In this document: piece after piece, positions 6,744 to 26,880 of the stretch
Layout: each line of letters starts with the position of its first letter
Numbering within the stretch: position 1 is the first letter of the stretch
IMG/VR virus record: IMGVR_UViG_3300045944_000072
Coordinates: 1 to 29,543 of that record
Strand: one strand, 5' to 3'
DNA length: 29,543 nucleotides
DNA from: a virus
The notes under the pieces: generated by a model
Databases searched by the model: none
Seen by the model: only the letters and a program-made list of their open reading frames with translations
What the model was told of the DNA's origin: nothing
Position numbers and translations under genes: made by a program

Positions 6744-6757
6744 GGAGCCTCGCCATG
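6744..6757 (+). promoter_or_regulatory. Start-associated GGAGCCTCGCC element
   Basis: GGAG (6744-6747) serves as Shine-Dalgarno and is followed by CCTCGCC and the ATG at 6755. Nearly the same block, GGAGCCTCGTC, precedes the ATG at 13561. Related GCCTCGCC octamers occur at 12841-12848 and 12855-12862. Confidence 0.45.
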
Positions 6758-7723
6758 TTGAACGTCGCCCTGATCGGCAACCACTCCGTGCCCCATTCGA
6801 CCGAGACACACCTGGCGAACGCTTGGGAAGCCAACGGCCACGACGTGGCCCGCATCCAAGAGGCGCCGTCGGCGTGGCGACACATGGCCGAACGGATCCC
6901 CGACGACGTCCAGCTCGTGCAGTGGGTAACCACCTACGACTACGCGCCGCCCGTCACCTACGACGACCAGCGCCGCTTCCTGAAAGAGATCCGAAACCGC
7001 GGCGTCCCGATCATCGGCACCCATCTGGATCGCTGGTGGGGATTGGATCGGGAGCATCGCATCCGCGAGTCGCCGTTCTTCACCGTCGATCTGCTGGCGA
7101 CGGCCGACGGCGGACACAACGCACAATGGGCCGAAGTCGGGATCGAGCACGTGTGGATGCCGCCCGGCGTCTCAGAGGCCGAGTGCGAACCCGGCACGTT
7201 CCGCGAGGACTTCTCTTCCGACGTCGCGTTCGTCGGATCGTGGCAGGGCCACTATCACCGCGAATGGCCCCACCGCGGGCAGCTCGTCCGGTGGCTGCGT
7301 GAGACGTACGGCACCCGCTGCCGGTTCTGGCCAGCCAAGGGGCAGCCAGCTGTTCGAGGCGAGGCGCTGCGCGACCTGTACGCGACGGTGAAGGTGCTCG
7401 TCGGCGACTCCTGTCTCGCCGGCGGCCAGACCAGGTACGCAAGTGATCGGATCCCGGAGACGCTCGGACGTGGCGGGTTCCTCATCCACCCGCACGTCGA
7501 AGGTGTCACCGACGGCCGCCTCTACAGCGACGGGCAGCATCTGCTGACGTGGCACGTCGGTGACTGGTCGAGCCTGCGTGACCTGATCGACGGGTCGCTC
7601 CGCTACGACTCCACACGAGAGCGGGTCGCCGAGCTCGGCCGCCGCCATGTGCTCGCCGGCCACACGTACGAGGTGAGGATGCGTCAGCTCGTCGCCGTCC
7701 TCGAGCAGCGGGGCATGCTGTGA
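6755..7723 (+). CDS. CgeB-like glycosyltransferase (GT-B fold)
   Basis: This 322-aa protein is a likely sugar transferase acting in the cytoplasm on a donor nucleotide sugar. The N-terminus MLNVALIGNHSVPHS is a Rossmann-like strand-loop-helix. The C-terminal half has RIPETLGRGGFLIHPHVEG near residues 230-248, which resembles the donor-binding block of CgeB-like and other GT-B enzymes (Arg, Glu, Gly-Gly, hydrophobic run). A further domain motif SSDVAFVGSWQGHYHREWPHRG near residue 155 also fits CgeB-type proteins, though it is given here only as context. It starts the five-gene cassette after an 18-nt gap and ends in a GTGA overlap with the next gene. Acceptor and sugar cannot be read from the sequence. 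Confidence 0.7.
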   Translation: MLNVALIGNHSVPHSTETHLANAWEANGHDVARIQEAPSAWRHMAERIPDDVQLVQWVTTYDYAPPVTYDDQRRFLKEIRNRGVPIIGTHLDRWWGLDREHRIRESPFFTVDLLATADGGHNAQWAEVGIEHVWMPPGVSEAECEPGTFREDFSSDVAFVGSWQGHYHREWPHRGQLVRWLRETYGTRCRFWPAKGQPAVRGEALRDLYATVKVLVGDSCLAGGQTRYASDRIPETLGRGGFLIHPHVEGVTDGRLYSDGQHLLTWHVGDWSSLRDLIDGSLRYDSTRERVAELGRRHVLAGHTYEVRMRQLVAVLEQRGML

Positions 7724-8427
7724 AACCCGCCGTCGTGAACGGCCGGTGGCGGCTGATCCTGCCGGACAGCATCGCCGACTGGGATGCGATCTCCCGCTGG
7801 GAAGTCGAACGGTTCGCGTCGATGGAGCACCATCTCCGGCACGGGATGACCCTGTTCGACGTCGGCGCCGAGCACGGCTGGATCTCCGCGATCTACGCAT
7901 CGTTCGTCGGCGCCGAGCACATGGTGCTGATCGAACCGACCGGGCCGCTGTGGGGCAACATCCGGCTCACGTGGGAGCACAACGCTCTGGCGGCGCCGCT
8001 CGCCACCGTCCGGTCGCTGGTCGGGCACGCCGGCCAGTGGGGTGCCGGCGAAGCCGAGATCAACGTCGGTGGGTGGCCTGACTGTTCGATCGGCGGCGAA
8101 TGGGGCGCCATGTCATACACGTACCTGCACGAACCGAAGCACCTGACCGAATGTCCGGTGACGACCATCGATCGGCTGGCCCGGACGGCGATGCCGGACG
8201 CGATCACGATCGACGTCGAAGGTGCCGAGCTTGACGTGCTGCGCGGCGCAGACATGGTGCTGCGGATGCGTCGCCCGCTGGTGTGGGTGTCGATTCACCC
8301 GGATCTGATGGCCCGCGACTACGCCGCCACCCCGGAAGAGCTGCTCGCCTACATGGCGGAGCGTGGCTACGACGGGGAGCATCTCGGCACTGACCACGAG
8401 CAGCATTGGCTCTTCTCGCCGTGCTGA
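7720..8427 (+). CDS. FkbM-family methyltransferase
   Basis: This 235-aa SAM-dependent methyltransferase probably O-methylates a sugar or similar hydroxyl. The glycine-rich SAM site TLFDVGAEHGWIS is at residues 44-56, the acidic strand-end MVLIEPT is near 68-74, and the FkbM hallmark IDVEGAELDVLRGA is at 164-177. GTG 7720 overlaps the preceding stop as GTGA. FkbM enzymes often sit beside glycosyltransferases and cap glycans, which fits this context. The substrate is inferred from neighbours only. Confidence 0.8.
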   Translation: MKPAVVNGRWRLILPDSIADWDAISRWEVERFASMEHHLRHGMTLFDVGAEHGWISAIYASFVGAEHMVLIEPTGPLWGNIRLTWEHNALAAPLATVRSLVGHAGQWGAGEAEINVGGWPDCSIGGEWGAMSYTYLHEPKHLTECPVTTIDRLARTAMPDAITIDVEGAELDVLRGADMVLRMRRPLVWVSIHPDLMARDYAATPEELLAYMAERGYDGEHLGTDHEQHWLFSPC

Positions 8428-8984
8428 CCGGGCTCGATTGGTGGCGCAGTCTCGAAGGTGACGCCATCGACGACAACACGGCAGGGGTCCCGCCATACGA
8501 CGTCGACCGGGTCGCCGAGATCGTGACCAACAAGCTCGAGGTGCGCGAAGGCCCGGTGCTGGACTTCGGGTGCGGTACCGGTCGTCTCACGGCCGCCGTA
8601 GCGCGGTTGCGGCCCGGCTTCGACATTCGCGGCGTGGAACCCGCTGACGCGATCCGGGCCAGGTTCATCGAGCGTCTAGTTCCTGCTGTGGTGGATCCGG
8701 TCATCCCGGACGTGTGGTTCGTCGGCGCCTACACCGTCACCGTGCTCCAACACCTCACCCACGGCGAAGGGGCGGTGGCGATCAAGTCGATCGGGCAGCG
8801 TCTCGTCCCCGGTGCACGGCTAGTAGCCCAGTACGTCGAAGGTGACGAGCACGGCCCGACGTCGCACCAGGTCAACCGTGACGTCGTATTCGACTGGTGT
8901 CACGCCGCCCGGCTCGCACCGATCACCCACCTCCTCAACGACTGCTACAGCGAATGGCGTTGGATCGTCGCGGTGAAGCGATGA
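8421..8984 (+). CDS. Class I SAM-dependent methyltransferase
   Basis: This 187-aa protein has the SAM motif VLDFGCGTGRLTAAVA near residues 46-61 and a following acidic strand end, IRGVEPAD. Later strands (VTVLQHL, then GARLVAQYVEG) fit a small Rossmann methyltransferase. GTG 8421 overlaps the FkbM stop (GTGCTGA) and is my chosen start; TTG 8406 in the same frame is possible. It ends in an ATGA overlap with the next gene. A second methyltransferase in one cassette suggests two methylated positions or two substrates. The substrate is unknown. Confidence 0.75.
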   Translation: MLTGLDWWRSLEGDAIDDNTAGVPPYDVDRVAEIVTNKLEVREGPVLDFGCGTGRLTAAVARLRPGFDIRGVEPADAIRARFIERLVPAVVDPVIPDVWFVGAYTVTVLQHLTHGEGAVAIKSIGQRLVPGARLVAQYVEGDEHGPTSHQVNRDVVFDWCHAARLAPITHLLNDCYSEWRWIVAVKR

Positions 8985-10495
8985 TCCCGGTCCGCTGGCT
9001 CGACGCTCATCCGCTCTGCTGGGACCAGGCCCTCCTCGACGAGATGCTCCCGGCTGAGACGCCCCGCCAGACGGTCGTCGTCCCGGCCCGCTACCACACC
9101 CCCGGCGACGTCGACCCGGCGGACGTGGCGATCCTCACGTCGGACGAGGAATCAATCTTCCCGTGGCGCGAGCTGCGCGCTCCGCTCGTGTGGATCCAGA
9201 CCCCCCGACCCGACATCCACGCCGGCCATGACCGGTTCTGGCCGCTCGGCTGGCCGGCCGACACCAGGGCGCTGCTCGGCCAGCTGCAGGGCGACGGACC
9301 CGTCGACCCGACGGGGGACTGGTGGTTCGCCGGTCAGGTCAACCACCGCCGCCGCCAAGAGGCCGTCGCGGCGATGCGGGCCGTCGACCCGGCGAACGTC
9401 GTCGAAACGCCCGGCTTCACCCAAGGCGCGGCCAGAGACCGCTACTTGGCCACGTTGGCGGCGGTCAAGGCCGCGCCGTGCCCGTCCGGGCCGAAGACGC
9501 CGGACACGTTCCGGGTGTGGGAGGCGCTCGAGGCCGGAGTGGTGCCGATCGCCGACGGCCGATGCCCGGCCGGAGTCGATGGCTACTGGCCATTCACGTA
9601 CGGGCAGGTGCCATTCCCGATCATCGACGACTGGGCCAACCTGCCCGACGTCCTGGCCGTCGAGCTCGACCGATGGCCGGCCAACGCGAACCGCTGCTTC
9701 GCATGGTGGCAGCTGCACAAGCGCACCCTCCGCCGCCAGCTCCTCGACGACGTCGGCTGCAGCGACCAGCGCCCCGTCACGGTGCTCATCCCGACGTCGC
9801 CGATCCCGACCCATCCGGACACGTCGATCATCGAGACCACCGTCGCCTCCGTCCGACACTGGCTCCCCGACGCCGACATCATCATCATGTGCGACGGGGT
9901 CCGCACCGAGCAGGAACACCACCGCGGCCGGTACGAGGCATATCTGCGCAGGCTGCTGTGGCTCTGCCAATGGCGATGGCAGGGTGTCACCCCGATCGTG
10001 TTCGACGACTTCCAGCATCAGGCGAACATGACCCGCGTCACGCTCGGTCACGTCGACACCCCGGCGGTGCTGTTCGTCGAGCACGACACGCCGCTCGTCA
10101 CCGACTGGCTCATCGACTGGCCCGCCCTCTTCGACGCCGTCGGCGACCAGCTCGACGTGATCCGGTTGCATCACGAAGCGGTGATCGTCGGGTCGCACCG
10201 CCCGCTCATGGTCGACAAGACACCGATCGACTTCGCTGGGGCGCCGATCCTGCGCACAACCCAATGGTCGCAACGCCCCCACCTCGCTGCCGCCGGCTAC
10301 TACCGGCGGATCCTCGACGACCACTTCCCCACATCGGGGCGCACGATGATCGAGGACAAGATGCACTCGGTCGCCCAGGTCGAAGGCTGGCACGCGCATC
10401 GCATCGGCCTCTACGCACCGGGGGAGAACCTGAAGCGCAGCTGGCATCTCGACGGGCGCGGCGACGACCCGAAGTTCGAGTGCAGGTTCACGTGA
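8981..10495 (+). CDS. Two-domain glycosyltransferase (exostosin-like plus GT-A-like)
   Basis: This 504-aa protein appears to join two transferase domains. Residues 1-255 form a GT-B-like half with TFRVWEALEAGVVPIADG near 174-191, like the donor-binding block of exostosin-type enzymes. Residues 265-500 begin VTVLIPTSPIPTHPD and continue with ADIIIMCDGVR and AVLFVEHDTPLV near 362-373, where EHD may take the role of the DxD metal site of GT-A enzymes. ATG 8981 overlaps the preceding stop as ATGA, and its own stop overlaps the next gene as GTGA. The call of a glycosyltransferase is fairly sure; the sugar and the activity of each half are not known. Confidence 0.65.
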   Translation: MIPVRWLDAHPLCWDQALLDEMLPAETPRQTVVVPARYHTPGDVDPADVAILTSDEESIFPWRELRAPLVWIQTPRPDIHAGHDRFWPLGWPADTRALLGQLQGDGPVDPTGDWWFAGQVNHRRRQEAVAAMRAVDPANVVETPGFTQGAARDRYLATLAAVKAAPCPSGPKTPDTFRVWEALEAGVVPIADGRCPAGVDGYWPFTYGQVPFPIIDDWANLPDVLAVELDRWPANANRCFAWWQLHKRTLRRQLLDDVGCSDQRPVTVLIPTSPIPTHPDTSIIETTVASVRHWLPDADIIIMCDGVRTEQEHHRGRYEAYLRRLLWLCQWRWQGVTPIVFDDFQHQANMTRVTLGHVDTPAVLFVEHDTPLVTDWLIDWPALFDAVGDQLDVIRLHHEAVIVGSHRPLMVDKTPIDFAGAPILRTTQWSQRPHLAAAGYYRRILDDHFPTSGRTMIEDKMHSVAQVEGWHAHRIGLYAPGENLKRSWHLDGRGDDPKFECRFT

Positions 10496-12249
10496 AGATC
10501 GGAGTCATCGCCCAGTCCACGAACCGTGGCCTCGGCATTCAGACGTGGGAAGCCTGCCGGCATCTGAACCCGGAGCGGGTGCTGCTCATCCGCCCCCGCC
10601 CGTGCCGGGTGTCGGAGCATCCCAACCGGTACCGCGATTGGGACACGACGTCGGTTGACTGGCCCGCCCGTGACGTCCTCGACGACCAGACGGTGAAGCG
10701 GTGGCTGTCCGGGCTCGACGTCGTCTACACCGCCGAAACGCTCTACGACTGGCGGATGCCCAGCTGGGGTCGGGCCGGGATCGTCTGCCACGTCAACCCG
10801 GAGATGCTGCGCCCCGACCGGGCGGCGATCCCCGACATCACCTGGTGGGCGGCGACCGACTGGCGGCTCCCCCTGCTCCCGTCCGACACACGCGTCGTTC
10901 CGATGCCCGTCGCCGTCGACCGGTTCACCCCCACGACACCAGCCGACGGGCCTACCCGGTTCCTGCACGTCGGCGGTGTCACAGCGATGCGCGACCGAAA
11001 CGGCGTCCGCATCGCTGCCGCCGCTCTCCACCACCTCGAGCAGCCCGTCCACGTCCGGTTCGCCACACAGGACCGGACCATCCCGCTCGGCAAGCACACA
11101 CCGCTCCACGTCACCGTCGACGTTCACCGGTTCGAGACCCCCGACTACTGGCGGCTCTACGACGACGCTGACGTGCTCGTCATGCCCCGCCGCTACGGCG
11201 GACTGTGCCTCCCGGCCCAGGAGGCGATGGCCGCCGGCCTCGCCGTCATCGTCACCGACTGCGAACCGAACGACACGTGGCCCGGGTTGAAGATCCCCGT
11301 CGACCGCTTCGACCAGGTCGACATGCCCGGCGGCACCGTCGACGTCGCCGAACCATCCACCACTGCGCTGGCCAAGCTCATGGACCGGCTCGCCGCCCCC
11401 TCGTCGCTCGCGGTGTGTCAGAAGATGTCCCGCCAGTGGGCGCGGCTGAACTCGTGGGAGCGGCTCCTACCGGTGTGGCTCGACGAGCTCGACCGGGCCG
11501 CTACCCGACCGCCTCGCCCGGCCGGGCCAAGAGTCAGTGTGCTGATTCCGTTCGGCGGCGACGACCCGCAACGGGTCCGGCTGCTCGACTGGGTGACCGA
11601 CTGGTGGCGAACGAACTTCCCGGACTGGCAGGTGATCGTCGGACGCTGCGAAGGCGACTGGGTGAAAGCCCGAGCCGTCGAAACCGCTGCCCTGCAGGCG
11701 ACCGGCGACCTGTTCGTCATCGCCGACGCCGACGTCTACTGCGACCCGCAGACGGTGCGCATCGCTGCCGCTCAGGCACTGCGGTTCGGATGGGCCAAGC
11801 CACACGGCCAGGTGCACCGCCTCGACGAAGCATCCACCGCCGTCCTCCTCGCCGGCGGCGAAGAGCCGCGGCGGTTCATGGAGCAGCACCACGCCAACCA
11901 GGGCGGCGGCATCACCGCCATCACCCGCTCCGTGTGGCAACGGGTGCCGCTCGACCCCCGCTTCGTCGGCTGGGGTCAAGAGGACTCTGCCTGGTCGCTT
12001 GCGCTGCACCTGCTCGTCGGGCCGCCCGGTCGGAACGACGGGCCGCTGATCCATCTGTTCCACCAGCCCGCGCAGCGGCTGACCCGCAACGCCGGCAGCC
12101 GCGAGAGCAAGAACCTGTTCATCCACTACCGGCAGGCCAACCATGAACGCATGACGGCGATGGCTGCGACGGCGCGGGAGATGCTCGATGGCGAAGGTGC
12201 GGATCGTGCTGAACCGGTCCGGGGTGCGGCAGCTGCTCCGATCGTCTGA
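10492..12249 (+). CDS. Two-domain glycosyltransferase (GT4-like plus GT-A with GWGxED)
   Basis: This 585-aa protein has an N-terminal GT-B half, with MPRRYGGLCLPAQEAMAAGL near residues 231-250, the GT4 pattern. A GT-A half follows from about residue 347 (VSVLIPFGGDD). The second half has a clear metal-binding VIADADVYCD near 409-418 and FVGWGQEDSAW near 491-501; the GWGxED block is known from GT27 and beta-1,4-galactosyltransferase-type enzymes. GTG 10492 overlaps the preceding stop as GTGA. The C-terminal 20 residues overlap the next gene by 62 nt in another frame and look low-complexity (Ala, Pro). The reading frame is open far upstream, but that part shadows the previous gene. Confidence 0.75.
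   Translation: MKIGVIAQSTNRGLGIQTWEACRHLNPERVLLIRPRPCRVSEHPNRYRDWDTTSVDWPARDVLDDQTVKRWLSGLDVVYTAETLYDWRMPSWGRAGIVCHVNPEMLRPDRAAIPDITWWAATDWRLPLLPSDTRVVPMPVAVDRFTPTTPADGPTRFLHVGGVTAMRDRNGVRIAAAALHHLEQPVHVRFATQDRTIPLGKHTPLHVTVDVHRFETPDYWRLYDDADVLVMPRRYGGLCLPAQEAMAAGLAVIVTDCEPNDTWPGLKIPVDRFDQVDMPGGTVDVAEPSTTALAKLMDRLAAPSSLAVCQKMSRQWARLNSWERLLPVWLDELDRAATRPPRPAGPRVSVLIPFGGDDPQRVRLLDWVTDWWRTNFPDWQVIVGRCEGDWVKARAVETAALQATGDLFVIADADVYCDPQTVRIAAAQALRFGWAKPHGQVHRLDEASTAVLLAGGEEPRRFMEQHHANQGGGITAITRSVWQRVPLDPRFVGWGQEDSAWSLALHLLVGPPGRNDGPLIHLFHQPAQRLTRNAGSRESKNLFIHYRQANHERMTAMAATAREMLDGEGADRAEPVRGAAAAPIV
11563..11577 (+). other. Isolated CAA-loop inverted repeat inside a glycosyltransferase gene
   Basis: GACCCG-CAA-CGGGTC is a six-bp perfect inverted repeat with the same CCGCAACGG core as the leader hairpins at 56-88 and 4158-4271. 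It falls at the start of the second transferase domain of the 585-aa protein. As a single copy it may be chance. Confidence 0.3.
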
Positions 12250-19789: not shown

Positions 19790-20701
19790 ATGCCCCGCTA
19801 CGACCGGGCCGAATGGCGGCCGCTGCCGGAGACGCTGCCCGGCCCGGAGATGCAACCGATCGGTCGGGTCCGTTCGTTCGTCATCCACACCCACGTCGGT
19901 CCGAAGGGTGGCGGGTTCCGGCTGCCGCCGCAACCGGGCCAGGAGTACACGTTCGACATGCGCGTGGGTGCCGACCGGGCCGGCAAAGCCGGGCTCCGCC
20001 AATACATGGACTCGAGCGTGCGGGCGGACAACAACTACAAGGCGAACGGGTTCATCCGCGACGGCGTCTACTACATCTCCGGGTCCGTCGAAACCGGCGA
20101 CCAGTACTACGACGGCGACCCCGGCCTGACCAAGACCTTCACCGAGCTCGGCCAGTGGGATTCGCTGGTGCATCTGTGCGCCTGGTACGTGCAAACCCAC
20201 GACCTGCCGATCCAGTGGTGTCCGGACCCGTACGGGCCGGGGTTCGGGTGGCATTCGATGTGGCGGACCGTCACCCCCGACAACCCGCACGACGACACGA
20301 TCTGGACAAAGACCGCGTCGAAGACCTGTCCCGGCGCCGGCAAGATCCGCCAACTCCGCGCCGAGCTGCTACCGGCGATCCGTGACGTGCTGTCCGTCAA
20401 GCCGCCGTCGAAGCCCGATCCGGTGCCACCCCCGGTGCCGACGTTGGAGGACGAGATGCTGTTCATCGCCAAGAGTCCGACCGGCGGATTCCACCTAGTC
20501 GCCATGACCGGATCGGGGGTCACGACGGTGGCGGTGGCGTCCGGCGCCGACCTCGAGCAGTTCGTGCGGCTCGGCGTCACGGTGCTCGACACGCTCACCG
20601 TCGAACAGTGGGCACAGCTCCGCGCTCCGAAGGTGTCGACGTTGCCGGTGTCCACCACCACGGCGGGACCGACGACGACAACGGTGATGCCGGACGTGTG
20701 A
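19790..20701 (+). CDS. Endolysin: N-acetylmuramoyl-L-alanine amidase
   Basis: This 303-aa protein probably cuts the amide bond between N-acetylmuramic acid and the stem peptide at lysis. The catalytic domain spans residues 1-200. Candidate zinc ligands are H33 or H35 (FVIHTHVG), H155 (GFGWHSMW) and C180 (SKTCPGAGK), the His-His-Cys set of T7-lysozyme-like amidases. A Pro-rich linker (PPSKPDPVPPPVP) follows at 205-217, then a C-terminal domain of about 70 residues that I cannot place and a Thr-rich tail. ATG 19790 has only a weak Shine-Dalgarno. No signal peptide is seen, so a holin is needed; candidate membrane proteins follow. The stop overlaps the next gene as TGATG. Confidence 0.8.
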   Translation: MPRYDRAEWRPLPETLPGPEMQPIGRVRSFVIHTHVGPKGGGFRLPPQPGQEYTFDMRVGADRAGKAGLRQYMDSSVRADNNYKANGFIRDGVYYISGSVETGDQYYDGDPGLTKTFTELGQWDSLVHLCAWYVQTHDLPIQWCPDPYGPGFGWHSMWRTVTPDNPHDDTIWTKTASKTCPGAGKIRQLRAELLPAIRDVLSVKPPSKPDPVPPPVPTLEDEMLFIAKSPTGGFHLVAMTGSGVTTVAVASGADLEQFVRLGVTVLDTLTVEQWAQLRAPKVSTLPVSTTTAGPTTTTVMPDV

Positions 20702-20775
20702 TGCCCCGCATCGGATGGCTAGTCGTCATCGCTGTCGCAGCCGTGGTCGTGATCGTTCTCGCTGTCGGCCAATAG
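20701..20775 (+). CDS. Tiny single-span membrane peptide (24 aa)
   Basis: ATG 20701 overlaps the endolysin stop as TGATG. The frame reads MPRIGWLVVIAVAAVVVIVL followed by AVGQ and a TAG stop. Nearly all of it is one hydrophobic span with a single Arg at the N-terminus. Coupled translation right after the endolysin suggests a lysis-related membrane peptide such as a small holin or regulator. It is below the usual length cut-off of gene finders. Chance is possible, but the hydrophobic run with an intact start and stop is persuasive. Confidence 0.5.
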   Translation: MPRIGWLVVIAVAAVVVIVLAVGQ

Positions 20776-20819
20776 TCCGCTAGGTGTCGCGCCCGCAAGC
20801 GGCCGAGGAAGGAACCGCC

Positions 20820-21014
20820 TTGTGGACACCATCCCGCATCCGCCTCGGCCTTGAAGTCATCTCGTTCATGACCGGCTGCGCCCTGGTAGTCCACTCGGCG
20901 GCGGTCGGCGGGGACATCACCCGGCTCCCCTTCTATCTCCTGATGATGGGCATCCCGGTCTCCAACGCCATCGACCGGGTGCGTCGCAACGGCAACGGAA
21001 AGGAGGGGGCGTAG
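20820..21014 (+). CDS. Putative holin, two membrane spans (64 aa)
   Basis: I chose TTG 20820 because GAGGAAGG (20805-20812) lies seven nt upstream; GTG 20784 in the same frame lacks a good site. The protein has two hydrophobic segments, LEVISFMTGCALVVHSAAVG and LPFYLLMMGIPVSNAI, and a charged tail RVRRNGNGKEGA. Small size, two spans and position just after the amidase fit a holin that releases the endolysin. Stop and next start abut exactly. Confidence 0.55.
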   Translation: MWTPSRIRLGLEVISFMTGCALVVHSAAVGGDITRLPFYLLMMGIPVSNAIDRVRRNGNGKEGA

Positions 21015-21314
21015 ATGCGTCGTCTCCTCTCCCGCCATCGGGTCGCCATCGCAATCGCCGTCCTCTACCTGCTGTCCGCCTGCGGGTTCTTCATCGCCCG
21101 CGACACCATCGACAACCTCGAACGCGAGGTGGCCCGCTCCACCCGCACCGACTGCGAGATCGCCGCTGCCCACAACCAGAGCCTGGTGACGTTCGCCGGT
21201 GAGGTGGTCCGCATCCTCGAAGAAGCCGGACCGACCACCCCTGCCGGGTTGAAGCTCGTCGCCGAGCTGTACGCGTCGACCGAGCGGCTGTTCCCCGTCA
21301 CGCCCTGCCCATAG
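21015..21314 (+). CDS. Membrane-anchored small protein, possible lipoprotein (99 aa)
   Basis: It starts with a basic segment (MRRLLSRHR) and one hydrophobic span (VAIAIAVLYLLSACGFFIA). Residues 20-23 read LSAC, which satisfies a lipobox, so it may be a lipoprotein or just a membrane anchor. The outside part is helical (TIDNLEREVARSTRTDCEIA, then LVTFAGEVVRILEEAG) and ends TPCP. The Shine-Dalgarno is AGGAGG at 21001-21006. Its place in the lysis region suggests a lysis accessory such as a spanin-like or holin-regulating protein, but the family is not recognised. Confidence 0.6.
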   Translation: MRRLLSRHRVAIAIAVLYLLSACGFFIARDTIDNLEREVARSTRTDCEIAAAHNQSLVTFAGEVVRILEEAGPTTPAGLKLVAELYASTERLFPVTPCP

Positions 21315-21324
21315 GAGGCGCCTG

Positions 21325-21408
21325 GTGACCGACACCCAAGCGTGGATCCTCGTCGTCGAAGTCGGCGTCATCGCCCTCCAAGCCCTCGTCGGGCTCATCC
21401 GCAGATAG
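21325..21408 (+). CDS. Tiny single-span membrane peptide (27 aa)
   Basis: GTG 21325 has a perfect AGGAGG at 21313-21318, six nt upstream. The frame reads MTDTQAWILVVEVGVIALQA followed by LVGLIRR and TAG. It is one hydrophobic segment with acidic N-terminus and basic C-terminus. The strong ribosome-binding site and the AGGAG of the next gene directly behind it argue for a real gene. It is too short for most gene finders. Function unknown; a lysis-related role is inferred from position. Confidence 0.55.
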   Translation: MTDTQAWILVVEVGVIALQALVGLIRR

Positions 21409-21415
21409 GAGAACC

Positions 21416-21592
21416 ATGTCCAAGTACGTGAAGGCCCTCGTGGCCGTCGCCGGCCTCGTCGCCACCACCGTCCAAGCCGCCCTCTCCGACGGCGAGTTCA
21501 GCCAGGACGACTGGTGGCAGGTCGCAATCGCCGCACTGACCGCGATCGGCGTCTACTTCTTCCCCAACGAAACCGACCCGGCAGACGGCTGA
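21416..21592 (+). CDS. Small holin-like membrane protein (58 aa)
   Basis: ATG 21416 has AGGAG seven nt upstream. The protein has two hydrophobic segments, VKALVAVAGLVATTVQAALS and QVAIAALTAIGVYFF, joined by an acidic turn (DGEFSQDDWW), and an acidic tail. Small two-span proteins with this aromatic-acidic turn are common in the lysis regions of actinobacteriophages and are often taken as holins. It is the fifth small membrane gene in a row. The stop overlaps the next start as TGATG. Confidence 0.6.
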   Translation: MSKYVKALVAVAGLVATTVQAALSDGEFSQDDWWQVAIAALTAIGVYFFPNETDPADG

Positions 21593-22166: not shown

Positions 22167-25100
22167 ATGACTCTGAGCGTCGCAGGAGTCCGAGGCGCCA
22201 CCGGAGTGTTCCAGGCGGGGACGGTCACGTCGCCGTCGTGGACGTCTGTGTCTGGGTCGACGATCGTCGTTATCTGCATCCACTTCCACACGGCCGGGGC
22301 GAGCGCCAACGGGGACTGCACCGACTCGAAGTCGAACAGCTACACGCTCGCCACGTCGCTGCTCGGCGGCACCAACCTGGTCGGCGTCTCCGCCTACTAC
22401 AACATTGGCGGCACCCGCGGGACGTCGCACACGGTCACGGTGGACCGGGTCAACTCGTCGCAAGAGACCACGAATCTTCACATCATCGAGATCACGTCCG
22501 ACGGGAACATCTCGTACGACTCGGCGTCGGCCGCCACCGCGAACGACACCACCAGCCCGTTCTCGGTGACCGCCGCCGCCGCGCTGCAAGCCGGAGCGAT
22601 CGGCCTCTACGGTGTCGTGCTTTCGACCGGCGGCACGAACGCGTTCACGAACCCGACCGGGTACACCGACATCTACGAAGAAACCGACGGGGCGAACAAC
22701 ACCGTTTCGCACGCCAGCTACAAGCTGAACGAGTCCGGCACCCCCGCGGTCGCGGCATCCAACTCGGACACGGTCGACGACGCCCGCGAAATCTTCCTGT
22801 CGTTCTACGACGACTCGTCGTCCGGTGTGACCGGCTCCGCCGCGGTGACCCTCGCCGCCTGCACGAGCTCGGCCAGCGGGTCGGTGATGAACCCGCCGGC
22901 CGTCCTCTACGTGAAAGAGGTCGGGTTCGTCACGAACACCACCGGCGCCGGTACCTCCGACATCACCGTCGCCTCCGGTGGGGTGCCGATCGGCGACACG
23001 ATCGTCATCTACGGCGCCTGCGACAACACCGGCTCCGCCGGCGCAGCCACCACCATCTCCGTCGCCGACAACTCGAACAACGCGGGCACCGCCAACACCT
23101 ATACGCTGCAAACCCCGCAGGCGATCGCCGACCCCGGCGCCGCCTCCGCAGGGCAGCAGGGTTTCTTCGTTGTCTGCCCCGTGACCCGGTCGCTCGACGC
23201 CGGCGACACGATCACGATCACCTACGGCAACTCGACCACCGCGAAGGCGATCTGCGCGCAGCAGTTCGCCGGCGCCGACACGACCACCCCCGTCCTCGCC
23301 TCCTCGTACGCCCGGCAGGACAACCAGACCGGCCAGGCCGTATCCGTCGCTGCAACCCCGGACATGAACGGTCAAGTGGTGTGCGCTCTCGTCGCGGTCG
23401 AGGGTGGCACCGCCGACAGCTTCACGCAGGACACCGACACGACCGACGGTGCCTGGGTGACGCTGACCCGCCGCGGGTCGGGGACGACCACGTCCGGGTC
23501 GACGCTCAACTCGACGTACAAGTACGTCCAGAATACGGGCACCCCGTCGGCGCAGACCTACGACCACTCGACGATGCTCGGCACGGCGAGGGATCACTGC
23601 GCAGCGATTCTCGTCCTCGACTGCCAGCCGATCACCGGCACCGTCGCGGTCACGTTGGCGGGCGCCACCTCGAGCGCCTCGGGCACGGTCACGGATCCGG
23701 GGATCACCGGGACGGTTGCGGTCACGCTCGAAGCGTTCACGTCGTCGGCTTCAGGTGCCGAGGTCTTCACCGGCACTTCCGCACAGACCCTCGCCGACTA
23801 CACCAGTTCGGCGTCGGGCACGGTCGCGAACCCGGTCACCGGCACCGTCGACGTCACACTCGAAGACTTCACGAGCTCGGCGTCGGGCACCGTCGGAGAC
23901 GTCATCACCGGATCCGCCGCGGTGACGTTGGCCGACTTCACGAGCTCGGCGTCGGGCCAACTGGTCATCACCGGCACCTCGGCACAGACCCTCGCCGCGT
24001 TCACCTCGACCGCGTCCGGCACGCTGATCATCACCGGCTCCGCCGCGGTCACCCTCGCCGACTTCACATGCGACGCGTTCGAGACGCTCGCCCCCTACGC
24101 CACCGCCGTCGCCGCCTCCGGCCGCTACCTCGAAGACCAGTTCGCCAACCCGTGGCTCGGCAACGGCATCTCGATCCAGATGTGGCAGAACTACCAGCCG
24201 GGCGGCGCCGTCATGTCGACCCTGCTCTCCACATCCGAGACGCTGAGCGTCAACCTGTGGCAGTGCATCGGCAACGCCAAGGGCGCAGCGATGAACGCCC
24301 CCGAGGACGGCTCCGACTGGGATGGGAACCTGCCGTACATCGGCGGCGACATCACCGACCCCAACCCTGACTACTGGGTGGACACGATCCGGGCCCACGT
24401 CCGGGCGGCGGCGCTCGCCGGCATCACCGTGATGCTAAACCCAGTCGACAACATCTCGTGGGCCAACGACTTCGGGTCCGAGACCGACGCCGACTGCCGA
24501 ACGTTGGGCCAGGCCATCGGCGCCTGGTTCGCCGACGAACCCAACCTGCTGTGGTCGATCGGCAACGACTGGCAGGACGAGCAATGGTCGGCGCTCAACT
24601 CGAAGTACGGGTCGCTCTTGCGCGGCATCCGTGAAGGCGGCGCCACCCAACCGGTCACCCTCTGGCTTCAGTACCTGCGGTCGATCTCCACGGACAACAC
24701 CGCTTGGGACGGCACCACCGACCGGGGCGGCTACACCTACGAGTACCCGGACATCAACGGCACGTACACGTACTACACGACCGAGATCGAAGCGAACCGG
24801 GCGTGGGAGACCGACAACATCCCGGTCATGTTCCTCGAAAGCCACTACTGGCAGTCAAGGTTCCACACGGTCGACGGCATCTCGACCACGACCCGCAAAG
24901 CGGTCCGGAAGAACGCGATCCGCTCGATCTGCTGGGGCGGTCTCGGCGGGTCGATCGTCTCCTCCGACGACCTGAGCTTGGCGACCGACGACGCCGACAC
25001 TGACATCGCCGACGCCGTCTTCGCTCACGTCGCCCGCACCATCGCCCACATCGCCAGCCTCGACGGGTGGGAGGGGCTCGTCCCCGACGCGGCCGCGGCG

Positions 25101-26096
25101 TTCGTCACCACCAACGCCGACACCGAACCGACGTTCGGGGACGTCGACTCGCCGCCCGCCAACGGGCAGGACGCCGACACCACCGACTTCACCACGGCCG
25201 GCGTCACGGCGGATGGGCTGCTAGCCGTCGCCTACGTCACCGCCACCGGCAACACGTTCGACCTCGGCGAGCTCACCGGCACGGTCACCCACTACTGGTT
25301 CGACCCGACCAGTGGCGACACCACCGCCCCAACGACCGGCCAGCCGACCTATCCGGGCAACAACGACGCCGGCGACCCCGACTGGCTCTTGGTGTTCACC
25401 GGCACCCCGGAGATCACCGGCACCGTCGCAGTCACCCTCGCCAACTTCACCTCGACTGCCTCGGGCACTGAGACGATCACCGGCACGTCAGCGCAGACCC
25501 TGGCGGACGTCACGTCGACCGCGTCTGGGTCGGTGGTGATCACCGGCACCGCCGCGGTGACCCTCGCGGACTTCACGAGCTCGGCGTCGGGTACTGAGAC
25601 GATCACGGGGTCGGCCGCCGTCACTCTCGCCGACGCGACCTCGGCGGCGACCGGCACTGAGACGATCACGGGGTCGGCCGCGGTCACGCTGGCCGACTTC
25701 ACGTCGAACGCGTCCGGTGGCATCGGCGACTTCATCACCGGATCGGCCGCGGACACCCTCGCCGATGCGACATCGACCGCCGCCGGGGCCGTCGTCATCG
25801 TCGGCACCGCCGCCGTCACCCTCGCGGACGTCACGTCGACCGCCACCGGGATCGTCGCCCCCCCAGTCACCGGCTCGGCAGCCATCGAACTCGAAGCGTT
25901 CACCGGCAACGCCACCGGCCAAGTCATCGCGAACGTCACCGGTACCGCAGCCGTGATCCTCGCCGCGTTCACCGCCGCCGCTTTCGGGCAGACCGGCATC
26001 CCCGACATCGGCAGTCCGGTCCGCTCCCGGCTGACGCGTGCGACCACGGCATCGACGTTCACCACAACCGGCACCACGGCAACGGAGTTCGACTGA
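22167..26096 (+). CDS. Fibre or spike protein with a glycoside-hydrolase-like domain between repeat arrays
   Basis: This 1309-aa protein is probably a receptor-binding fibre and depolymerase. Two Thr/Ser-rich beta domains form residues 1-220 and about 245-485. A first array of about seven repeats (TG-x-x-AVTLADFTSSASG pattern) covers 488-641. Residues 643-1078 match the DUF4038 apiosidase-like layout: YLEDQFANPWLGNG, then NLLWSIGNDWQ (D801) and VMFLESHYW (E891) as candidate acid pair, then a small beta domain with HYWFDPTSGD and DWLLVF like the one that follows that catalytic domain in related proteins. A second array of about nine repeats covers 1081-1280. One more repeat lies near 220-240. 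The start is ATG 22167. Confidence 0.65.
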   Translation: MTLSVAGVRGATGVFQAGTVTSPSWTSVSGSTIVVICIHFHTAGASANGDCTDSKSNSYTLATSLLGGTNLVGVSAYYNIGGTRGTSHTVTVDRVNSSQETTNLHIIEITSDGNISYDSASAATANDTTSPFSVTAAAALQAGAIGLYGVVLSTGGTNAFTNPTGYTDIYEETDGANNTVSHASYKLNESGTPAVAASNSDTVDDAREIFLSFYDDSSSGVTGSAAVTLAACTSSASGSVMNPPAVLYVKEVGFVTNTTGAGTSDITVASGGVPIGDTIVIYGACDNTGSAGAATTISVADNSNNAGTANTYTLQTPQAIADPGAASAGQQGFFVVCPVTRSLDAGDTITITYGNSTTAKAICAQQFAGADTTTPVLASSYARQDNQTGQAVSVAATPDMNGQVVCALVAVEGGTADSFTQDTDTTDGAWVTLTRRGSGTTTSGSTLNSTYKYVQNTGTPSAQTYDHSTMLGTARDHCAAILVLDCQPITGTVAVTLAGATSSASGTVTDPGITGTVAVTLEAFTSSASGAEVFTGTSAQTLADYTSSASGTVANPVTGTVDVTLEDFTSSASGTVGDVITGSAAVTLADFTSSASGQLVITGTSAQTLAAFTSTASGTLIITGSAAVTLADFTCDAFETLAPYATAVAASGRYLEDQFANPWLGNGISIQMWQNYQPGGAVMSTLLSTSETLSVNLWQCIGNAKGAAMNAPEDGSDWDGNLPYIGGDITDPNPDYWVDTIRAHVRAAALAGITVMLNPVDNISWANDFGSETDADCRTLGQAIGAWFADEPNLLWSIGNDWQDEQWSALNSKYGSLLRGIREGGATQPVTLWLQYLRSISTDNTAWDGTTDRGGYTYEYPDINGTYTYYTTEIEANRAWETDNIPVMFLESHYWQSRFHTVDGISTTTRKAVRKNAIRSICWGGLGGSIVSSDDLSLATDDADTDIADAVFAHVARTIAHIASLDGWEGLVPDAAAAFVTTNADTEPTFGDVDSPPANGQDADTTDFTTAGVTADGLLAVAYVTATGNTFDLGELTGTVTHYWFDPTSGDTTAPTTGQPTYPGNNDAGDPDWLLVFTGTPEITGTVAVTLANFTSTASGTETITGTSAQTLADVTSTASGSVVITGTAAVTLADFTSSASGTETITGSAAVTLADATSAATGTETITGSAAVTLADFTSNASGGIGDFITGSAADTLADATSTAAGAVVIVGTAAVTLADVTSTATGIVAPPVTGSAAIELEAFTGNATGQVIANVTGTAAVILAAFTAAAFGQTGIPDIGSPVRSRLTRATTASTFTTTGTTATEFD
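23629..24090 (+). repeat. First Thr/Ser-rich repeat array of the fibre gene
   Basis: About seven coding repeats of 60-75 nt encode variants of ITGTxAVTLADFTSSASGT. Two perfect 23-bp DNA copies within it lie at 23865-23887 and 23934-23956. Confidence 0.8.
25408..26005 (+). repeat. Second Thr/Ser-rich repeat array of the fibre gene
   Basis: About nine repeats of the same family follow the hydrolase-like domain. The 23-bp block of the first array recurs without change at 25569-25591. A 26-bp block is identical at 25593-25618 and 25656-25681. Identity at DNA level within a diverged array suggests recent duplication or conversion. Confidence 0.8.
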
Positions 26097-26475: not shown

Positions 26476-26880
26476 ATGCTCGCTCGCGCCCTCGCACCGC
26501 TCGTCTTCGTCCTCGCCGCTTGCACCCCCGACCAGGTCGCCCAATGGCACCAGCTGCGGGCCCGTGACCCGGCCGCCGCGCAAGCTGTCGTCGACGCGTT
26601 GCGGGACGCCCGCGGCTACGCCTACGACTCTGTGTGCGCCCGGTGGGGATGCGATCAGTGGCCCGCCCTCGAGGACCTGTGGCAACGCGAATCGCACTGG
26701 CAGCCGGACGCGGTCAACCCGTCATCGGGGGCGTGCGGCATCCCGCAGAGATACCCGTGCCACGGACTCGACGCCCTCCACCCACACGCTCAGGTGGATT
26801 GGGGGCTCGACTACATCGCCGCCCGGTACGGCACCCCTGGCAACGCGCTCGCCGAATGGAACGCCAAAGGCTGGTACTGA
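26476..26880 (+). CDS. Lytic transglycosylase-like lipoprotein
   Basis: This 134-aa protein has a lipoprotein signal: Arg at position 4, hydrophobic core ALAPLVFVLA and lipobox LAAC with C16. The mature part has DLWQRESHWQPDAVNPSSGA with E72 as likely catalytic Glu, then GIPQ, and YIAARYGTPGNALAEWNAKG at the end. That is the pattern of small SLT-type transglycosylases of phages and actinobacteria. It would cleave glycan strands while tethered to the outside of the membrane. GGAG lies six nt or so before ATG 26476. It is the last gene of the late operon, before a strong terminator. Confidence 0.75.
   Translation: MLARALAPLVFVLAACTPDQVAQWHQLRARDPAAAQAVVDALRDARGYAYDSVCARWGCDQWPALEDLWQRESHWQPDAVNPSSGACGIPQRYPCHGLDALHPHAQVDWGLDYIAARYGTPGNALAEWNAKGWY

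Follow-up and report, generated by a model that had tools for sequence, protein, structure and literature searches.

A putative phage lysis cassette with a three-protein membrane core and two optional single-span microproteins

Results

Five small membrane protein genes follow the lysin

A lysin gene and five small membrane protein genes directly downstream of it probably form the lysis cassette of a temperate siphovirus with an apparently actinobacterial host. The cassette would consist of a three-protein core (64, 99 and 58 aa) and two optional single-span microproteins (24 and 27 aa). We analyzed it in a stretch of 29,543 nucleotides, i.e., positions 1 to 29,543 of the IMG/VR record IMGVR_UViG_3300045944_000072 (hereafter the window), and in related phage lineages.

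The five co-directional ORFs of 24, 64, 99, 27 and 58 aa occupy positions 20701–21592 (Table 1). ORF listing and Kyte-Doolittle hydropathy confirmed the original prediction that all five are tiny genes with hydrophobic spans. Its Shine-Dalgarno (SD) sites for four of them were also found, i.e., AAGGA (64-aa gene), GGAGG (99-aa gene), AGGAGG (27-aa gene) and AGGAG (58-aa gene). The 24-aa gene has no SD and, as predicted, overlaps the lysin stop, with its start inside TGATG at 20699–20703. On the Kyte-Doolittle scale, a crude measure read here as the best 19-residue mean, spans were strong in the 24-aa (3.19), 99-aa (2.52) and 27-aa (2.35) products and moderate in the 58-aa (1.79) and 64-aa (1.69) products, which each also have a weak second span (1.12 and 1.22, respectively). 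All five products are distinct and have no similarity to one another.

As a control for chance, all plus-strand start-to-stop ORFs of 20–35 aa in the 29.5-kb window (n = 91) were scored for a span with a mean hydropathy of at least 1.6. Only the 24-aa gene, with two nested starts, and the 27-aa gene passed (3 of 91), and on the minus strand one of 204 short ORFs did. From this control we conclude that the two hydrophobic microproteins are not chance ORFs. The cassette is also the only run of small hydrophobic genes among the gene-like ORFs of 40 aa or more in the window. Third-position GC was 0.85–0.91 in the 64-, 99-, 27- and 58-aa frames, compared with 0.83–0.86 in the portal and terminase genes, and 0.71 in the 24-aa frame.

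Table 1. Positions of the lysin gene and the downstream membrane protein genes in the window.
Feature	Position	Strand	Remarks
Lysin A, 303 aa	19790..20701	+	By profile, divergent relative of Amidase_2 lysins
24-aa single-span microprotein	20701-20775	+	ATG start; TGATG overlap with lysin stop
Leader and ribosome-binding region of 64-aa gene	20783..20827	+	Kept in L005
64-aa protein, two hydrophobic spans, basic C-terminus	20820-21014	+	Core member; TTG start
99-aa protein, N-terminal span then predicted helical domain	21015-21314	+	Core member; ATG start
27-aa single-span microprotein	21325-21408	+	Accessory; GTG start
58-aa protein, two hydrophobic spans	21416-21592	+	Core member; ATG start

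In the window, terminase, portal, protease, capsid and tape-measure genes are followed by the lysin and then by the membrane set. Farther 3′ lie an acidic 41-aa ORF, a virion protein (PHROG 3758), a 1309-aa repeat protein and a minus-strand integrase. This gene content most likely indicates a temperate siphovirus. Relatives of the portal protein are nearly all found in phages of actinobacteria, and the host is apparently actinobacterial. The 1309-aa protein (22167–26096) contains many repeats of the type TGSAAVTLADFTSSASG and resembles glycoside hydrolase family 5 (cellulase) weakly and below the cut-off (E 5.7e-4). Glycosyltransferase-like genes (PHROG 28745, 1721 and 2170) were found amid the head and tail genes at 6755–12249.

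Three membrane proteins are common to four phage lineages

Scans of 2.9 million viral contigs yielded three further uncultured phage lineages with the set, L002, L003 and L005, i.e., four genomes including the window. L004 is the same genotype as L003 from a second sample (100% over 4731 bases), and the two were counted once. A pattern match in L016 was due to chance and lay in an unrelated region. Prophage relatives of the set were not found in genome contigs, nor was a cultured phage relative in the phage records searched. In these records, a nucleotide search gave no match in the cassette and one weak match downstream, and tblastn with the 64- and 99-aa proteins and the lysin gave none. The 58-aa protein retrieved only weak matches to Microbacterium phage "membrane proteins", which lay outside the lysis cassette where examined. 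An Rfam search of the cassette gave nothing credible.

The 64-, 99- and 58-aa genes are present in all four lineages. Identities to the window in L002, L003 and L005, respectively, were 94%, 92% and 25% for the 64-aa protein, 70%, 69% and 52% for the 99-aa protein, and 89–91%, 100% and 69% for the 58-aa protein. In comparison with L002, silent changes clearly exceeded replacement changes in the 64-aa (p = 9e-8, Fisher) and 58-aa genes (p = 5e-6). The excess was modest in the 24-aa gene (p = 0.011) and not clear in the 99-aa gene (p = 0.08). By these counts, purifying selection acts on the 64- and 58-aa genes, more weakly on the 24-aa gene and little on the 99-aa gene (dN/dS about 0.4–0.8).

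The set remains adjacent to the lysin in all four lineages, which carry three different lysins. When the window is compared with L002, their DNA becomes similar from 20698 onward, at the start codon of the 24-aa gene, which indicates that the lysin was swapped while the membrane set was kept. The L005 lysis cassette also includes a DNA N6/N4 methylase gene (L005:6164–6919), preceded by the 24-aa gene and followed by the two-span gene.

In a stretch of about 45 nt that leads up to and spans the TTG start of the 64-aa gene, the window and L005 are 87% identical, while the proteins share only about 25–29% identity, a hint of translational control. A hairpin that would hold the SD in its loop was predicted before this gene but was not clearly better than in shuffled sequences. 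Neither the 64- nor the 58-aa protein had a significant match to holin families in Pfam, PHROGs or NCBIfam; the 64-aa protein had no holin match at all, and for the 58-aa protein the best was a weak one to PHROG 11087 ("holin", E 0.016). Its stronger profile match was to PHROG 17055, of unknown function (E 1.3e-5). Compared with the type II holin plan of two spans in an N-in/C-in arrangement, both proteins have two spans by hydropathy, the second being weak, with a topology read from the charge distribution only. PHROG 17055 is 115 positions long; the 58-aa protein matches its second half (54–104) and the L005 homologue its first half (1–54), as if this family contained a doubled hairpin.

The 99-aa protein has one N-terminal span, a basic N-terminus and two invariant cysteines, C47 and C98. 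From the basic N-terminus, an N-in/C-out orientation is predicted, which would place the helical part outside. Its AlphaFold model is helical and of low confidence (pLDDT 54).

The lysin resembles Amidase_2 enzymes

The window lysin gave no Pfam or PHROG match above cut-off, and did not exceed the curated cut-off of Pfam Amidase_2 (PF01510). Its profile matched the Amidase_2 lysin of Brevibacterium phage LuckyBarnes over residues 24–189 (hhalign E 4.8e-6 as the value for this single comparison, probability 86%), and more weakly lysin A of Streptomyces phage Ibantik. In the profile comparison, H33, H155 and C180 align with the expected His, His and Cys of the zinc site. Profile similarity to PF01510-positive lysins and these active-site residues characterize the protein as a divergent Amidase_2 relative, and the label "endolysin" in the original prediction stands. 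The L005 lysin is 84% identical to that of the window.

A profile search of solved structures with the window lysin gave no match, and its AlphaFold model was too poor for use (pLDDT 38). A C-terminal domain common to the window and L003 lysins, suspected by eye, was unsupported by pairwise or profile comparison. No export signal was evident on reading the N-terminus, from which we infer that the enzyme would need a membrane lesion. At 26476–26880, 5 kb from the lysin, a 134-aa protein that resembles transglycosylases (PHROG 12661, E 3e-21) is possibly a second wall enzyme.

The two microprotein genes differ in their conservation

Conservation of sequence or length, on which the original prediction had staked its two smallest genes, was found for the 24-aa gene in three of four lineages and was mixed for the 27-aa gene, which is intact in one of three relatives. 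The 24-aa gene has exactly 24 codons for residues in the window, L002 (83% identity to the window) and L005 (54%). In all three it forms a stop-start overlap with the upstream gene, whichever gene precedes it, i.e., the window lysin, an unrelated Amidase_2 lysin in L002, and in L005 a 65-aa ORF, which in turn overlaps the lysin. The gene is not intact in L003, where other sequence stands in place of its 5′ half and provides no start for the frame. L003 (4476–4577) and L005 (6919–6993) also have a tryptophan-rich tiny ORF (24–33 aa, core WHR.WDC.WR) before the 64-aa gene, which is absent in the window; its similarity between the two lineages was above that of 2000 shuffles.

In L005, the 27-aa gene is intact, with one residue changed besides the start codon. 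Its DNA is 96% identical to the window, compared with 75% for the neighbouring 58-aa gene and 60% for the 99-aa gene, which suggests a recent exchange. The upstream contexts differ between the window and L005, and both retain the SD and a start codon, GTG in the window and ATG in L005. From 21319 to 21405 the similarity of the window to L002 is interrupted, so that L002 lacks just the 27-aa gene; in L003/L004 a 7-nt deletion shifts its frame. As two of the four lineages have no intact copy, the 27-aa gene is, by this comparison, evidently optional. An extra 29-aa ORF of L005 with one hydrophobic span (MRLWRRYRIFITWEAVAVGCAVIAWLSGR; L005:7257–7346) is flanked by the homologues of the two-span and 99-aa genes and overlaps the stop of the preceding gene.

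The clean absence and the frameshift of the 27-aa gene, its apparent exchange on its own and the broken 24-aa gene in L003 would also fit passenger genes ("morons", e.g., superinfection-exclusion or envelope-modifying peptides), with only the 64/99/58-aa set acting in lysis. We consider this unlikely, because in two of the three lineages having it, the 24-aa gene keeps its length, its start overlap and its slot immediately ahead of the 64-aa gene, and in all of them it follows the lysin or the lysin's neighbour. Moreover, both peptides are single-span and in kind like known lysis modulators, and an accessory status is compatible with a role in lysis.

It is quite improbable that one or both microprotein ORFs yield no functional protein, i.e., are GC-rich by-products or DNA that serves only as a coupling or spacer element. 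Their hydrophobic sequence is of low complexity, the 24-aa frame has its lower third-position GC and no SD of its own, and the window/L005 comparison of the 27-aa gene is too recent to reveal codon-level selection. However, the two are unique among the 91 short ORFs of the window. The exact 24-aa length at the L005 level of identity and the silent-change excess against L002 argue for translation of the 24-aa gene, as do the SD and start codon retained in two contexts for the 27-aa gene.

Discussion

The original prediction of a multi-part holin or antiholin set is the reading best supported by the linkage to the lysin and by published actinophage cassettes, whereas nothing was found that points to its further suggestion of membrane signalling. 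A signalling or defence module unrelated to lysis might explain why no curated holin matched and why the better PHROG matches are to unknown-function or "membrane protein" families, but it is highly improbable given the adjacency to three different lysins in four lineages and the lack of a sensor or effector domain in any of the five members.

In Gordonia phages, lysA is followed by as many as four distinct holin-like genes, with one-span proteins of 79–145 aa (Pollenz and colleagues, PMC9671378), and Gordonia phage Xenia2 has four such genes (PMC11385102). That one or two such proteins are usual, as the original prediction assumed, is true for classical lysis models but not for Gordonia phages, where three or four are common (PMC9671378). 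Like the present set, the Gordonia cassettes consist of lysA and several unrelated small membrane genes in varying combinations that are singly gained or lost (PMC9671378; PMC11385102). They differ in having at most four genes instead of five and in the length of their one-span proteins, which here are 24, 27 and 99 aa; moreover, the present set has no sequence relatives in the phage records searched. With a lysin at its head and at least two distinct, non-duplicated small membrane genes downstream, the set has the make-up of an actinophage multi-membrane-gene lysis cassette. By this comparison we regard it as the same kind as the Gordonia multi-holin cassettes and not as a new category. New here are the number of five genes and the two among them of less than 30 aa.

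In the F1 mycobacteriophages Girr and NormanBulbieJr, lysis is set jointly by a two-span and a one-span protein, as deletions of LysF1a and LysF1b showed (PMC13056207). In both sets, a one-span protein of about 100 aa comes immediately after a small two-span protein (here the 99- and 64-aa products, respectively). In contrast, LysF1b is predicted to be N-out/C-in with a highly charged cytoplasmic tail (PMC13056207), unlike the predicted N-in/C-out 99-aa protein. Also, no lysin B was seen in the window, and the present set has extra members. The 99-aa protein shares its single span, predicted N-in/C-out orientation and lysis-cassette location with LysZ of Corynebacterium phages which, compared by its description in that work only, is much larger (PMC13056207). 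The 64- and 58-aa proteins resemble the type II holin S21 of phage 21 which, as far as outlined there, is a small two-span protein of about 60–70 aa (PMC13056207). Here, however, there is no SAR lysin and no clear dual start, and separate genes would encode the holin and antiholin forms.

Gene content, conservation and lysin identity were observed, and from them we infer possible individual roles as holin, antiholin and LysZ- or spanin-like protein. At a set time, one or both two-span proteins would open the membrane for the lysin, and as hairpins the 64- and 58-aa products are natural candidates for hole-formers or hole regulators. The 99-aa protein may tune timing or act on the envelope, like LysZ or an inner-membrane spanin. 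Through its stop-start overlap, the 24-aa peptide would be translated in step with the upstream gene. Both microproteins could have an antiholin-type role, as single-span modulators packing against the holins so as to shift when these trigger, and phages could gain or lose such peptides. A more specific version is a five-component lysis timer, where the 24-aa peptide, coupled to the preceding gene (usually the lysin), would be a portable brake or trigger on the two-span holin pair and the mobile 27-aa peptide would fine-tune it; this we consider speculative and rather unlikely.

As a probable lysis cassette, the set widens the range of multi-gene lysis cassettes, with five members and with peptides of less than 30 aa, which tend to be skipped by standard gene callers. 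Work on Gordonia phages and mycobacteriophages has raised the question of microprotein tuning of lysis timing, for which relatives that carry or lack the 24- and 27-aa genes would provide natural contrasts.
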